NCBI GenBank assembly: GCA_002395135.1
Contig: DGWC01000095.1
Coordinates: 1 to 34,629 of the forward strand
Length of the DNA stretch: 34,629 nucleotides
DNA from: Prevotella sp. UBA4268
GTDB lineage: Bacteria > Bacteroidota > Bacteroidia > Bacteroidales > Bacteroidaceae
Direction: 5' to 3'
The notes beneath the pieces are model-generated. The model saw only the letters and a list, made by a program, of their open reading frames with translations, was not told the DNA's origin and ran no database searches. Positions 3,993 through 15,202 of the stretch are shown here, piece after piece. The position numbers and the translations under genes were made by a program. The stretch's first letter is position 1, and each line of letters begins with the position of its first letter.

Positions 3993-4955
3993 CTACTGTT
4001 CCACGGGTATGAATGCTCCATCAGGGTGATGGGCACCTTGATAAATGTTTTTCTGGCAAAGGTAATTGTGGAGTAGGTTGGCAAACTCATGGTTTTTGAG
4101 TCCCCATTTGGGAGCAATGAGCATATCGGCAGGACTTTGCGAGACGAACCGCTCTAAAATAATATCTTTTCTTATCAGTTGTATATAATTGGAAATCAAT
4201 TCAATATATTCTTCCGGAGAATAAAAATGAAAAGGCTTTTCTTCGTATTCTTTGGCCAAGCGCGTGCCTTTGATAATCTGCAACTGGTGTATCTTGAGGA
4301 TGTTCAACGGCAGCGATGAAATGACAGAAGCCTGTCGTAGGCTTTCTTCCGCATCTTCTCCTGGCAAACCAACAATGATGTGGGCACCCGTAAGTATGCC
4401 GCGCGCTGCTGTTTTCTCAATTGCTCGTTGCGAACAGGCAAAGTCGTGACCACGGTTGATGTGTTTCAGCGTTTCATCGTTAGCGCTTTCAATGCCGTAT
4501 TCCACGATTACCGTGGTTGTTTTGCTCAATTCCCCGAGATAGTCGAGTAGCGATTCGGATACGCAATCAGGGCGAGTTCCAATCACAATGCCGACTACAT
4601 CTTCGACGTTGAGAGCCGTCTCATACATCATCTTGAGTCGGTCGAGTGGGGCATATGTGTTGGTAAATGCTTGGAAATAGGCGAGATACTTCATGTCGGG
4701 GTATTTGCGGGCAAAAAAATTCTTGCCAGCCTCAATCTGAGAAACGATGAGCGAAAGAACGTTGGCTGTGTTTGCGGCAGTGCTTTCTATGGAAAGGTAC
4801 GACGGATTGAACGTGCGGTTGTCACAAAATGTGCATCCTCCGAATGAAATACTCCCGTCGCGGTTGGGACAGGTGAACCCGGCGTTGACGGATATCTTTT
4901 GTATGCGGAAGGGAAAGCGCATTCTTGCCCAGGTGCCGAAATCGTTGTAGTGCAT
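3993..4955 (-). CDS. yhcC: TIGR01212-family radical SAM protein (YhcC-like)
   Basis: A 320-residue radical S-adenosylmethionine enzyme. The cluster-binding cysteines sit in the unusual spaced form seen in YhcC/TIGR01212 proteins: CPNRDGSISFGGCTFCDN at about residues 29-46, with C29, C41 and C44 as the likely [4Fe-4S] ligands. Further family marks are FQAFTNTYAP (about 114-123), a GTRPDCVSESLLDYL block and VEYGIESANDETLKHINRGH. A TIM-barrel core and a C-terminal region ending in a HPDGAFIP-like tail complete the usual length. The start ATG at 4955 begins directly with the conserved MHYNDFGTW. The reaction is not known for the family; homologs are often annotated as Fe-S oxidoreductases. It is divergent from dipeptidyl peptidase IV with an interlocked promoter pair between them. 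Confidence 0.88.
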   Translation of the reverse strand: MHYNDFGTWARMRFPFRIQKISVNAGFTCPNRDGSISFGGCTFCDNRTFNPSYLSIESTAANTANVLSLIVSQIEAGKNFFARKYPDMKYLAYFQAFTNTYAPLDRLKMMYETALNVEDVVGIVIGTRPDCVSESLLDYLGELSKTTTVIVEYGIESANDETLKHINRGHDFACSQRAIEKTAARGILTGAHIIVGLPGEDAEESLRQASVISSLPLNILKIHQLQIIKGTRLAKEYEEKPFHFYSPEEYIELISNYIQLIRKDIILERFVSQSPADMLIAPKWGLKNHEFANLLHNYLCQKNIYQGAHHPDGAFIPVEQ

Positions 4956-10754: not shown

Positions 10755-12067
10755 AACAGACTCCAATTCAGAAAGAACTTATTGATGGTGCCATCCGCGA
10801 TTTTGGCATTCAGGACTTTGCCAAGGCAACTATCCGTGAAGTGAAGTCTATTGCAGCCTTTGCTGAGAAGGAGTCTGGCGTTGAGTTCATTAAGATGGAA
10901 ATGGGTATTCCTGGCCTGCCTGCTGCAAAAGTAGGAGTAGATGCACAGATAAAAGCCTTGAATGAAGGGATAGCGCACAGTTATCCCGACATTCAAGGTC
11001 TCCCAATGTTGAAAGAGGAAGCATCCCGTTTTGTGAAAGCATTCATCGGTGTTGACATTTCTCCTGAAGGTTGTGTGCCTGTATGTGGTTCTATGCAGGG
11101 AACATTTGCTTCGTTCCTAACCTGCTCACAGTGCGATCCGAAGAAAGATACCGTGTTGTTTATCGATCCGGGATTCCCTGTCCAGAAGATGCAGTTGCAG
11201 GTTCAGGGTGTGAAATATGAGACTTTTGACGTTTATGATTACCGCGGAGAGAAACTGGGGCCTAAACTGGAGAGTTATCTTTCAAACGGTAACATCTGTG
11301 CAATCGTATACAGCAACCCGAACAATCCTTCGTGGATTTGTTTCAATGAGGAAGAACTGAAGGTTATTGGAGAACTTTCCAACCGTTACGATACGATTGT
11401 GATGGAAGACTTGGCTTATTTTGCCATGGATTTCAGGAAGAATCTCAGCCAGCCGTTTATGCCGCCTTATCAGCCGACAGTGGCTCGATATACAGACAAT
11501 TACATTCTTTTGATCAGCGGATCCAAGGCTTTCAGTTATGCTGGTGAGCGAATTGGCGTGACGTGTATTGGTGACAAACTGTTCCGTCGCCATTTTGAGG
11601 CTTTGGCAAATCGCTATGAAGGGTTGCCTTTTGGCTTGGTTTTCTCCACTCGTATGCTCTATGCCTTGTCATCAGGTACCAGTCACAGTGCACAATATGC
11701 CATGGCTGCCATGCTGAAAGCAGCCTCTGACGGCACATATGATTTCCGCAAGGAGGTGAGTGTCTATGGTGAGCGAGCAGGAAAACTTAAGGATATTTTC
11801 CGTCGTCACCATTTCTATGTTGTCTATGACAAAGATTTGGACGAGCCAATCGCCGATGGATTCTATTTCACGATAGGATATCCCGGTATGACAAGTGGGG
11901 AACTAGCCCATGAACTGATGTATTATGGGGTGAGTGCCATCTGTCTTGTCACCACAGGAAGCCATCAGGAAGGTCTGCGCGTATGCACATCATTCATCAA
12001 TGACAATCAGTATGCATTGCTTGATGAGAGAATGGCAATCTTTGCGGAGAACAATCCTGTGGATTAA
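10751..12067 (+). CDS. Class I/II PLP-dependent aminotransferase linked to iorAB
   Basis: A 438-residue fold-type I aminotransferase. The internal aldimine lysine is K259 in SGSKAFSYAGERIG. The substrate/cofactor asparagine motif reads YSNPNNPSW at about 179-187, and the PLP-ring aspartate is in VMEDLAYF near residue 220. The start forms an ATGA overlap with iorB and has a Shine-Dalgarno site. Its position suggests it transaminates aromatic (or branched) amino acids to the 2-oxoacids that IorAB oxidises, or runs in the opposite direction to make phenylalanine, tyrosine or tryptophan from aryl-acetates, as known for rumen bacteria. Substrate specificity cannot be read from the sequence. The gene ends with a stop codon interlocked with the convergent pqqD-like gene (4-base overlap) and has no terminator of its own. 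Confidence 0.88.
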   Translation: MKQTPIQKELIDGAIRDFGIQDFAKATIREVKSIAAFAEKESGVEFIKMEMGIPGLPAAKVGVDAQIKALNEGIAHSYPDIQGLPMLKEEASRFVKAFIGVDISPEGCVPVCGSMQGTFASFLTCSQCDPKKDTVLFIDPGFPVQKMQLQVQGVKYETFDVYDYRGEKLGPKLESYLSNGNICAIVYSNPNNPSWICFNEEELKVIGELSNRYDTIVMEDLAYFAMDFRKNLSQPFMPPYQPTVARYTDNYILLISGSKAFSYAGERIGVTCIGDKLFRRHFEALANRYEGLPFGLVFSTRMLYALSSGTSHSAQYAMAAMLKAASDGTYDFRKEVSVYGERAGKLKDIFRRHHFYVVYDKDLDEPIADGFYFTIGYPGMTSGELAHELMYYGVSAICLVTTGSHQEGLRVCTSFINDNQYALLDERMAIFAENNPVD

Positions 12068-12336
12068 GGCTCAATGATTCCTGCTTCAAGCCATTGCTTT
12101 GCCAGTTCGGTGGCATCGGCGAGAGCAGTAGCGTCATCAACATCATATTCAGCAGTGAGCAGTTCTTTGAGGTCTTCCTCTGTGAAACTGTCTCGCTGCT
12201 GAACGTTTCTCCACAGATAAGCAGACGATTCGTTCATACTGATAATGCTGCTAAAGTCAATGTTTTCCTTGCCTTCGGCAACGATAACCTGTTCTTTACA
12301 AACCGTTCTGAGATTAAATCCTTTTTTCGCTTTCAT
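12064..12336 (-). CDS. PqqD-family protein (RiPP recognition element-like)
   Basis: A 90-residue protein with the PqqD layout: an N-terminal beta-wing (GFNLRTVCKEQVIVAEGKENIDFSSIISM), the conserved NESSAYLW segment at about 35-42, then two helices ending with QWLEAGIIEP. PqqD and related domains bind leader peptides of ribosomally made, post-translationally modified peptides (RiPPs) and present them to a maturase. Here it is free-standing and the last gene of a minus-strand run: HPr-kinase-like gene, S26 peptidase-like gene, then this one, with a 21-base gap to the peptidase gene. No radical SAM maturase and no plausible precursor peptide are next to it. Its stop codon interlocks with the convergent aminotransferase. 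Family assignment is good; the partner and substrate are unknown. Confidence 0.8.
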   Translation of the reverse strand: MKAKKGFNLRTVCKEQVIVAEGKENIDFSSIISMNESSAYLWRNVQQRDSFTEEDLKELLTAEYDVDDATALADATELAKQWLEAGIIEP

Positions 12337-12357
12337 ATCCTTGTTATACTTGTTTTG

Positions 12358-12843
12358 TTATATTGCCTTGAAAAAACGTAACCATATCCTTCTGTAGAAT
12401 GCAAGCAGGTAGCGGCGAATGGGAAAGAGCCTGGTCCAAATCCATGAATAGACTTTCCATTTCAAACCGTCGGTGGCATCCAGTTGGTCACGTCCTTTTC
12501 GGTAGAATCCTTTTACGCCTCCTCTTATATCTTCTGGCCGGCAGCGCTCAACACCAAGATTCCCGTCACCCCTTAGTACCACTTCCTTGTCATTGATGGC
12601 AATGATGCGGTGTAAGACGAAGTGTCCAGGTGCTATTTCTGCAAGCACTGGATCTCCTTTTTGCGGATGCTGCGGCTTCACAAGAAGGGCTTTGTCGCGC
12701 CCATCTTCTAAAAACGGGCGCATGCTGAATCCTTTCAGACGCAAAGTCACTGTGTGACCTTCGTTGAGGAGTTTCACGATTTCTGGAAGAAACTCAGCAT
12801 TTGTAAACTGAATCTCTGTTATTTTGATATGGCTTGATGGCAT
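12358..12843 (-). CDS. S24/S26-type signal-peptidase-like protein (SipW/ER type)
   Basis: A 161-residue protein from the ATG at 12843; a TTG at 12873 would add 10 residues and seems less likely. It carries the S26 nucleophile motif GFSMRPFL (S40) and the box-D-like VLHRI with H78 where bacterial type I signal peptidases have lysine, plus RGDGN (91-95). A Ser/His pair is the arrangement of SipW/ER-type signal peptidases. The C-terminal 40 residues are rich in aromatic and basic residues (WIWTRLFPIRRYLLAFYRRIW) and could associate with the membrane, but there is no clear N-terminal anchor, unlike secretory signal peptidases. The 5' end overlaps the HPr-kinase-like gene by 25 bases, showing tight coupling. 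A role in cleaving a peptide handled by the neighbouring kinase and PqqD protein is inference. Confidence 0.75.
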   Translation of the reverse strand: MPSSHIKITEIQFTNAEFLPEIVKLLNEGHTVTLRLKGFSMRPFLEDGRDKALLVKPQHPQKGDPVLAEIAPGHFVLHRIIAINDKEVVLRGDGNLGVERCRPEDIRGGVKGFYRKGRDQLDATDGLKWKVYSWIWTRLFPIRRYLLAFYRRIWLRFFKAI

Positions 12844-13721
12844 ACAATGGCTGCTTCTCTGTTGGGGAGACAATGAAGAATGTATAATCCGGTTGTCTCA
12901 ACTATTCTGGTAACATTATTACAGATGGCATCAAAAATGTCTTTGTCCCATCTCATGGAAGAGCAAGAGGGCAAGAGCGAGGCAAATGCTTCTATAGGAG
13001 GCAGTTTCTCCACGCTGTTTTCTTTCGCCCGGTCTATTCGCGTGATGGCTCCCAATGGTGCTTTTACTTGGCGATAGCATGGCGTCTTCCCGCTCCAAGG
13101 GCTTCCGTATATGAACGGTTCTCCGTCGATGATGCGTATAATGGGGTTGTCGTCGTTCATTAAGTCACAATTGGGAATGTGTCTGAGCCACATGCTCACC
13201 TGTGTGCTCTTTCCCGTACCGCTTTTTGCAATAAATGCGTATCCGTAGCCATTATGCCTTACCAGTGAAGCGTGTATGAGTACGGTTTGTTTCAGACTGC
13301 CAGCAAATGCAAAAATAAGCATCAATGCATTATTCAGTCCGAAACAACGCATGTTGTAATTGCCGTTGAGCGCACATTTACAGTCGTTGAAACTCTTGTT
13401 TGCTTGCAGCAGACAGCACTCGTAACCATTGATGTCCTTGATGATATACTGATAGCCGCCGTCAGGAAACCTGTCAACAATGGTTTCTCCATTTCCAGTG
13501 TCGAATTTCCCGATATGTTCTTTTCCTTCCTTTGGGCGGGGCTTTAGTTCATCGTCGACGGTGAGTCGGAAAAACAGATCATCATCTGTTGCTTCTTGTC
13601 TGAAGGGCTCAAATGAGGGAAGGAGTCTCATGTCGTTTATCTGAGACTCCTTGAATACTATTTTGACGTTAAAGTCTGCAATCTTGAAATGGTTGATGTT
13701 CATATTCGATAACAATGCCAT
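12819..13721 (-). CDS. HPr kinase-like (PEPCK-fold) serine kinase
   Basis: A 300-residue protein with a weakly conserved N-terminal half and a C-terminal HprK-like domain. Visible motifs are HASLV with H150, the Walker A AKSGTGKST (165-173), a NDDNPI acidic box (D190/D191) matching the catalytic aspartates of HPr kinase, and GSPWSGK (206-212), a second glycine-rich loop found in HprK-related kinases. It is not true HPr kinase: the normal C-terminal signature is absent and no HPr gene is nearby. HprK-related kinases phosphorylate peptide serines in some lasso-peptide clusters (for example the paeninodin kinase), so the co-occurrence with a PqqD protein and a peptidase points to peptide modification. 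The start may be the ATG at 13721 or the one at 13703. It lies 14 bases after the unknown secreted protein gene. Confidence 0.78.
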   Translation of the reverse strand: MALLSNMNINHFKIADFNVKIVFKESQINDMRLLPSFEPFRQEATDDDLFFRLTVDDELKPRPKEGKEHIGKFDTGNGETIVDRFPDGGYQYIIKDINGYECCLLQANKSFNDCKCALNGNYNMRCFGLNNALMLIFAFAGSLKQTVLIHASLVRHNGYGYAFIAKSGTGKSTQVSMWLRHIPNCDLMNDDNPIIRIIDGEPFIYGSPWSGKTPCYRQVKAPLGAITRIDRAKENSVEKLPPIEAFASLLPSCSSMRWDKDIFDAICNNVTRIVETTGLYILHCLPNREAAIVCHQAISK

Positions 13722-13735
13722 GATGACAGTTTAGC

Positions 13736-14275
13736 CTATGCCGGTGCTCCCTTTTCTACAACAGGCTTGGCAGGTCTCTGCTTGTTCTTTTTGGGCTTTT
13801 TGACTTTTACTTTCGGCTCATCCTGATCATTGTCGTATTCATTGGGAACGACGACTTCGTATTTAAAGTCGTTGAGCGTCAGTAATTTGATGTCATAGTT
13901 CCGAACCTTTTTCTTGTTTTTCTTTTTTCCTTTCAAATCATTTGAGTACAGGCTCTTCATTTCCAGATACTTCTTTTCAATGTCTTTTCTGTTCAAGGCA
14001 TAGGAAGTAATACATGTACGGTTGGGCTGTCCTTTCTCAATGAAATAGTCACGCAACTGGTATGAGTAGTTGTTCCTGTGCAAAAGGAAATTATTCTTGT
14101 CATTGATCCATGCACTGTCTATTTCCTGGATTTCCGTGAAATAGACTATAGAGTCATTGAATGATGCAGATAAACCGAAGACATAGATCTTTGGAACTAC
14201 CTTATTCTTAGCAGATGCTGTAAATGCGCACATCAGTAATGTTATCGCAAAAACAATAACAACGTTTCTTTTCAT
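13736..14275 (-). CDS. Secreted protein of unknown function
   Basis: I do not recognise this gene. With the ATG at 14275 it encodes 179 residues beginning with a good signal peptide (MKRNVVIVFAITLLMCAFTASA); an upstream in-frame ATG at 14305 would place ten extra residues before it. The mature part starts KNKVVPKIYVFGLSASFNDSIVYFTEIQEI, followed by a region rich in aromatic and charged residues and a very basic stretch (KGKKKNKKK). The tail has lysine/proline repeats and ends EKGAPA. No lipobox fits the cysteine in the leader, so it is probably soluble or loosely envelope-associated. It is 38 bases downstream of rpoD (8 bases if the longer start is used) and 14 bases before the HPr-kinase-like gene, so it may be co-transcribed with both. 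Whether it belongs to the kinase cassette is open. Confidence 0.65.
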   Translation of the reverse strand: MKRNVVIVFAITLLMCAFTASAKNKVVPKIYVFGLSASFNDSIVYFTEIQEIDSAWINDKNNFLLHRNNYSYQLRDYFIEKGQPNRTCITSYALNRKDIEKKYLEMKSLYSNDLKGKKKNKKKVRNYDIKLLTLNDFKYEVVVPNEYDNDQDEPKVKVKKPKKNKQRPAKPVVEKGAPA

Positions 14276-14313
14276 TTCAAATTTAAAGATTCTTAATTGT
14301 TTCATTCATCGCC

Positions 14314-15177
14314 TTATTGACCAAGATATGCTTTCAAAAGGCGGTTCTTCGTATTATGGCGCAAGCGTCGAATTGCCTTTTCCTTGATTTGTCTGACACG
14401 TTCGCGCGTGAGTCCGTATTTGTCGCCGATTTCTTCGAGTGTCATTTCCGGGCGGTTGATGCCGAAAAAGGCCTCGATGATATTCCTTTCGCGCTCATTG
14501 AGCGTGAGCAGAGCCCGATTGATTTCTTCTCTCAAGGATTCCAGAACAAGTGTTTTGTCGGCCATGGGGGAGTCATCGTTCACCAAAACGTCAAGCAAAC
14601 TGTTGTCATCTCCGTCTGCAAACGGTGCATCCATGCTGACATGCCTTCCCGTTACCTTGATTGCATCTTCGATTTTTTCCTGTGGAAGATCCACTTTATC
14701 TGCTATTTCGTCAATGCTGGGGCGTCGTTCATTCTCCTGTTCGAATTTACTCAGCACGCGGTTTATCTTGTTTACCGACCCAACTTGGTTCAACGGCAGC
14801 CTTACAATGCGGCTTTGTTCAGCAATTGCCTGTAAAATGCTTTGACGAATCCACCATACAGCATAACTGATGAACTTGAAACCGCGCGTCTCATCGAACT
14901 TCTCGGCGGCTTTTATCAATCCGAGGTTACCCTCGTTGATCAGATCGGGAAGACTAAGTCCCTGATTCTGATACTGTTTTGCTACAGAAACAACAAATCG
15001 CAAATTCGCCTTGGTGAGTTTTTCGAGTGCTTCACGGTCGCCTTTTCTTATGCGCTGTGCGAGTTCTACCTCTTCTTCCACAGAGATAAGGTCTTCATGA
15101 CCGATTTCCTGCAGATATTTGTCAAGAGAAGCACTCTCTCGATTTGTTATTGATTTTGTGATTTTTAGTTGTCTCAT
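14314..15177 (-). CDS. rpoD: RNA polymerase primary sigma factor (RpoD/SigA, Bacteroidetes type)
   Basis: A 287-residue primary sigma factor of the short Bacteroidetes form, lacking the long region 1.1. It begins [22 protein letters not shown], includes region 2 ([32 protein letters not shown], then the promoter-melting [15 protein letters not shown]), region 3, and the region 4 helix-turn-helix ([15 protein letters not shown], then [23 protein letters not shown]). The start at 15177 matches the known N-terminus of Bacteroides RpoD; a GTG/ATG-type extension to 15186 adds only three residues. A full-consensus promoter lies 25 bases upstream, overlapping the terminator of htrA. Downstream, genes follow in the same direction at short spacing, so the kinase/peptidase/PqqD trio may be driven in part from the rpoD promoter. 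Confidence 0.96.
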
Positions 15178-15202
15178 GGTGCACATTGATTAAAAGCAAA
15201 TG

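Follow-up and report, generated by a model that had tools for sequence, protein, structure and literature searches.

Here we describe a three-gene cassette on the minus strand of contig DGWC01000095.1 from Prevotella sp. UBA4268 (assembly GCA_002395135.1; the 34,629 nucleotides analyzed are called the window below), encoding an HprK-like kinase, an S24/S26-like serine peptidase (the S26-like protein) and a free-standing PqqD-type recognition element (RRE) for ribosomally synthesized and post-translationally modified peptides (RiPPs). Judged from sequence, the cassette is probably the stand-alone enzyme set of an RRE-guided phosphopeptide-processing system that acts in trans. PqqD would bind a Y-x-x-P (YxxP) motif near the start of short peptides dispersed over the genome, the kinase would then phosphorylate a Ser/Thr at a fixed position 19-20 residues past the Tyr, and the S26-type peptidase, predicted to be a cytosolic leader peptidase, would cut near the same small-residue site (A/T-G/A-S). 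We infer binding, phosphorylation and cleavage, as well as the export route and the role of the product for a partner protein, from the comparisons set out below.

Reading of the open reading frames (ORFs) in the window recovers three real genes, overlapping or adjacent, at the place and on the strand given by a first-pass annotation. The S26-like gene starts within the 3' end of the kinase gene (25 nt overlap) and is separated from the PqqD gene by 21 nt. The Walker A, NDDNP and GSPWSGK boxes that the annotation had listed for the kinase are all present, and alignment of 36 kinases shows H144, SGTGKST (161-167), NDDNP (183-187) and G-x-PWSGK (200-206, all but x) to be invariant, including the catalytic set H144, K165, D184 and D185. 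The same His-Lys-Asp-Asp set, with the same 21-residue His-to-Lys spacing, is described for the lasso-peptide kinase BsfK in the available part of PMC10368454, and the residues that count there (the His, the Lys/Ser of the P-loop and the Asp pair) are all kept in the window kinase. Family libraries place the kinase poorly: the copy scanned has no significant Pfam match (and none to the HprK family), no Pfam or NCBIfam model is matched above its cut-off, and the score is 20 bits for ScmC (cut-off 125) and 16 bits for HprK_rel_A (TIGR04352; cut-off 200), while a precomputed protein-database tag assigns it to PF27840. Sequence searches of the PDB gave nothing firm for the cassette proteins; the kinase profile matches HprK crystal structures at E=0.018-0.028 only, ranked behind ABC-transporter P-loops.

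The S26-like protein of the window scores 17.2 bits against PF00717 (cut-off 23.3), and the homologous domain clears this cut-off in four fusion proteins. The motifs S40-M-x-P43, H78-R79 and G92-D93, which include S40, H78 and D93, are invariant in 33 aligned sequences, and hydropathy indicates no transmembrane segment (maximum over 19 residues, 1.27). PqqD clears PF05402 (54.9 bits, cut-off 23.4) and is the sole match to this family at E<=0.1 in the genome, which is 84.7% complete.

The cassette is widely conserved. Kinase matches at E<=0.001 were found for 7726 of 8000 scored candidates, and the order kinase, S26-like protein, PqqD on one strand is kept in 73 of 80 named Bacteroidales loci. 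Among the seven others, four (L099, L126, L127, L138) have less than 1.5 kb of sequence behind the kinase, in L122 the gap ahead of the S26-like gene is wider, L132 has a nucleotidyltransferase-S26 fusion and L104 is without S26-like and PqqD genes. The strict kinase motif is found in 79 of the 80 loci, the exception (L124) having an insertion before what appears by eye to be an intact P-loop. For the S26-like protein the strict motif is found in 74 of 78; three of the remaining four appear intact by eye, and the L131 ORF is without the Ser region. Among 151 sampled genomes of the family, the kinase and PqqD are each present in 122, and their occurrence agrees in 149 (exceptions G001 and G085). 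The enzyme types named by the first-pass annotation thus stand, and the scattering of the genes or loss of catalytic residues that it thought would speak against a functional cassette is not what the homologs display.

The annotation had also noted the absence of a radical SAM enzyme, transporter or short precursor gene nearby. By window ORFs and Pfam, no radical SAM, exporter or precursor gene directly adjoins the cassette, the closest radical SAM match lies about 7 kb away, and scanning the window with the YxxP peptide profile described below reveals no precursor (best E 0.77). A hidden precursor beside the cassette was considered and rejected: among the short ORFs around 12 of the 80 named loci, chosen mostly for their unusual gaps, nothing is conserved by eye. 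The annotation had left the substrate open, either encoded elsewhere or a protein; of these, encoded elsewhere is probably correct, and a multi-copy YxxP family in the same genome is the likely candidate.

With a first peptide profile, six sites were located in the genome of the window (E 0.001 to 0.29), all of them YxxP ORFs. A second profile, with these six included, matched at 11 sites (E<=0.05). We read 10 of these matches, and six of the 10 had been in its training alignment. The genome thus holds at least 10 YxxP peptides, scattered away from the cassette. No NCBIfam match was obtained for 10 representative peptides from relatives, and Pfam gave a single chance-level match (E 0.19) for the same number. 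Altogether 69 peptides of 33-88 aa were read in 60 loci, at sites that were mostly top-ranked profile matches and so non-random. The motif lies within the first 30 residues in 69/69, although the selecting profile itself contains it; a Ser stands exactly 19 residues after the Tyr (Y+19) in 60/69, and a Trp within the last 14 residues in 59/69. In 45 loci, 49 matches of at least 20 bits were found in real frames and none in reversed or shuffled frames. The BsfA precursor has its leader Tyr at -17, and the residue that BsfK phosphorylates is Ser3 of the core (equal to Y+19), in a reaction that the RRE speeds (available part of PMC10368454). Most of the peptides have this same spacing, and PqqD-guided phosphorylation is therefore predicted at that Ser.

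Peptide genes are paired with genes for exported proteins. In a held-out set of 49 peptides, 36 are preceded at no more than 250 bp by a gene on the same strand, and 32 of the 36 upstream-gene proteins carry at the C-terminus a tail of the form 'Y-N-L-x-G ... K-G-I-Y-I-V-N-G-K-K', compared with 1 of 195 other genes; for the tail profile, the 12 upstream neighbors in L207-L221 served as the training set and L222-L266 as the test set. (The profile superseded a regular expression that had proved too strict, with 19/69 hits.) The gap from partner gene to peptide is 11-50 bp in 37 of 48 cases. Of the 10 peptides read in the window's genome, eight stand directly behind a gene with such a sorting-like tail, and six of these eight tail proteins have a signal-peptide-like start by eye, the starts in L207 and L208 being missing or unclear. 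BspA-type leucine-rich repeat proteins and bacterial Ig-like proteins are among the partners. The sorting domain PF18962 is matched at E<=0.01 by none of 10 partners (seven from this genome). In deeper relatives, six of seven scanned upstream proteins hit it, four of them over the cut-off. SprA, of the type IX secretion system (T9SS), is present in the window's genome, and the arrangement goes with the presence of T9SS: in genomes that have SprA the peptide follows a gene in 47 of 60 cases, while without it eight of nine precede a lipoprotein gene (six of these nine peptides come from one genome, G149).

The kinase and the peptides also co-occur. Of the 151 genomes, 111 have both, 11 the kinase only, five peptides only and 24 neither (P=7e-15); dropping five family genomes used in profile training leaves 106/11/5/24 (P=2e-14). 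In genera mixed for the kinase, 49 of 58 genomes agree on kinase and peptide (permutation P=1e-4), as do 39 of 48 (P=5e-4) when the training genomes and genus g3 are left out. In g3 the kinase is present in G149 alone, and none but G149 among the nine genomes has peptides. The association is kept with SprA (94/6/4/7) and without it (17/5/1/17), and a control, the 189-aa protein encoded beside the cassette (u189), is not associated with the peptides (P=0.62).

As a separate observation on G149, four of its loci (L216, L217, L059, L200) show nine YxxP matches in the ~51 kb that surround a kinase-ABC locus. Six peptides were read there; they closely resemble one another, and each stands before a large lipoprotein-like gene, which suggests recent expansion or transfer.

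In more distant relatives the enzymes are often accompanied by an ATP-binding cassette (ABC) exporter and a PF14907 nucleotidyltransferase, which together form the accessory set of phosphorylated lasso-peptide clusters in the available text of sources including PMC10368454. At the order level, the kinase profile has matches at E<=1e-10 in 37 of 247 genomes, and loci were taken from 33 (in L167, L176 and L194, ORF picking gave no kinase). A short YxxP peptide lies between PqqD and the kinase in seven of these 33 loci (L180, L183, L190, L191, L192, L196, L198) and directly before the kinase in L186 and L177, and some of the loci with peptide and enzymes also hold an ABC exporter. The eight peptides aligned have YxxP in common, the lasso RRE recognition motif according to the portion of PMC12710340 consulted. 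In deep-relative peptides Ser/Thr stands at Y+20 in 8/8.

Gene fusions tie the cassette enzymes together. An N-terminal S24/S26 domain is fused to an ABC exporter in L181 (1716-3956), L185 (7594-9876) and L193 (1176-3593); the other fusions are S26 with nucleotidyltransferase (L132), kinase with S26 (L063) and PqqD with nucleotidyltransferase (L061), the calls in L063 and L061 resting partly on profiles made in this analysis.

Table 1. Cassette genes and other features of the window (positions of the whole 34,629-nt stretch).
Feature	Position	Strand	Remarks
HprK-like peptide kinase	12819..13703	-	294 aa from MNINHFK; ORF open from 13721; start placed at ATG 13703 because relatives align there
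S24/S26-like serine peptidase	12358..12843	-	161 aa; ATG at 12843; predicted cytosolic leader peptidase
Free-standing PqqD-type RRE	12064..12336	-	90 aa; PF05402
189-aa protein (u189)	13736..14305	-	function not assigned; signal-peptide-like start (by eye); neighbor, probably not part of the cassette
Primary-type sigma-70 factor	14314..15186	-	Pfam sigma-70 regions 1.2-4; neighbor, not part of the cassette
Radical SAM protein	3993-4955	-	320 aa; the genome has 13 such matches, this one included; not seen to be linked with the cassette

Several other arrangements were seen around related genes. In L038, L041, L042, L044 and L046 the 189-aa gene is separated from the kinase/S26 genes by a gene for a clostripain-like (C11) protease, an assignment checked against Pfam in L042 only. 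Longer YxxP-like peptides (~140-165 aa) lie near related kinase genes in L061 (7586-9163), L062 (9636-12181) and L064 (11262-12939), and in L061 and L062 they are followed by genes that by eye resemble those of radical SAM enzymes. In L066 (9244-9429) and L067 (9060-9212), a short peptide of another type stands immediately before a kinase-PqqD-nucleotidyltransferase-ABC operon. Related kinase/PqqD/nucleotidyltransferase genes, or parts of the set, lie near polysaccharide genes in L052-L055 and L071, with glycosyltransferase, Poly_export and GNVR/AAA_31 matches in the members scanned.

Some observations weigh against a trans-acting system of this kind. The kinase and the peptides are each associated with SprA (P=6e-6 and 2e-7) and the kinase is weakly associated with u189 (P=0.013), so lineage effects remain. 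Peptide matches occur in five kinase-less genomes (G044, G067, G079, G112, G139), of which G067, G079 and G112 are at least 90% complete (G112 with one match, E 0.0017), and 11 kinase-bearing genomes are without a peptide match; the profile was trained mostly on peptides from kinase-bearing genomes, and detection between genera is biased. The window kinase has A159 at the position of a glycine that matters for BsfK activity (available part of PMC10368454), the L177 peptide has its Ser at Y+18, and in L061 and L062 related kinase/S26/PqqD sets lie near YxxP-like peptides and radical SAM genes, so that other maturases may exist.

Among other explanations, the kinase might act on the exported partners or other proteins, with the YxxP peptides a parallel lineage feature, e.g. 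chaperones or expression regulators. The peptide genes are indeed operonic with genes for tail-bearing proteins or lipoproteins, and a T9SS review, in the part available, calls the gingipain-phosphorylating kinase(s) unknown. Nevertheless, the RRE motif in the peptides, their place within the enzyme operon in some deep relatives and the persistence of the kinase-peptide association with and without SprA make this improbable. For the adjacent 189-aa protein or the sigma factor to be the substrate, one could point to their common adjacency in close relatives and to the weak kinase-u189 association; yet the 189-aa family is near-universal (145 of 151 genomes, including 25 of 29 without the kinase), for which reason this neighbor was thought unlikely as a candidate, and among the loci listed the more distant ones do not show it next to the cassette. 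We regard a substrate of this kind as extremely unlikely.

It is also very unlikely that the three genes are what remains of a RiPP cluster, lasso or other, in decay after losing its precursor, cyclase and exporter: the exporter, nucleotidyltransferase and precursor that adjoin the enzymes in some distant relatives do not adjoin them here, but the kinase motif is intact in all 80 loci (79 strictly, one by eye), and gene order and the joint occurrence of PqqD and kinase are kept as described above. We give a similarly low probability to maturation of the peptides by other enzymes (radical SAM or graspetide type), with the cassette only removing leaders. The radical-SAM-like genes beside YxxP-like peptides in L061 and L062 would fit such a scheme, whereas the kinase active site is kept and, of the 13 radical SAM matches in the window's genome, one is on the contig of any of the 10 listed peptides, ~49 kb off.

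Returning to an RRE-guided, trans-acting phosphopeptide system, we tentatively suggest, as a possible though rather doubtful extension, that surface proteins are produced together with YxxP companion peptides of their own. One central PqqD-kinase-S26 set would phosphorylate and trim these peptides, and the phosphopeptide, possibly extended by the nucleotidyltransferase in some lineages, would help display, anchor or regulate the T9SS cargo or lipoprotein. The open-licence literature in PubMed Central yielded no description of the cassette with these peptides, and in the available text of a survey of Bacteroidales RiPPs (PMC10352776) PqqD appears once, in the references. If correct, our proposal would explain the function of an orphan operon, the kinase of which occurs in 122 of the 151 family genomes, and that of a peptide family that is multi-copy in many of them and without a match in the family libraries tried, and would link RiPP chemistry to exported-protein display, with a directly testable phosphorylation site.

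Peptidase-containing ABC transporters (PCATs) are peptidase-ABC fusions with a C39 cysteine peptidase that acts on leaders of the GG type. The fusions in L181, L185 and L193 likewise have an N-terminal peptidase domain on an ABC exporter, but the domain is of the serine S24/S26 type, a serine-peptidase counterpart, and the present system has no GG leader. SynChlorMet ScmC and HprK-related kinase A are kinases with a PqqD partner; the pairing is alike, but the window kinase falls far below the cut-offs of these families. The partner genes resemble those of type IX cargo in ending with a sorting-like tail in a genome with SprA, though the part of the T9SS review available makes no mention of a small companion peptide. 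The closest likeness in parts is to the lasso kinase systems (BsfK/BsfB1/BsfA; PadeK, ThcoK, PsmK/PsmN) as described in the available literature, which share the HprK-like His-Lys-Asp-Asp kinase, a discrete PqqD-type B1 RRE (here PF05402), a YxxP leader, in some cases a nucleotidyltransferase and ABC exporter, and, in BsfA, phospho-Ser at Y+19. A lasso-peptide system as such was rejected, as the B2 transglutaminase-like protease (PF13471) has 0 matches at E<=0.1 in the window's genome at the completeness given above. In place of B2 there is an S26-type serine peptidase, and one cassette would serve many dispersed peptides that are paired with exported proteins.

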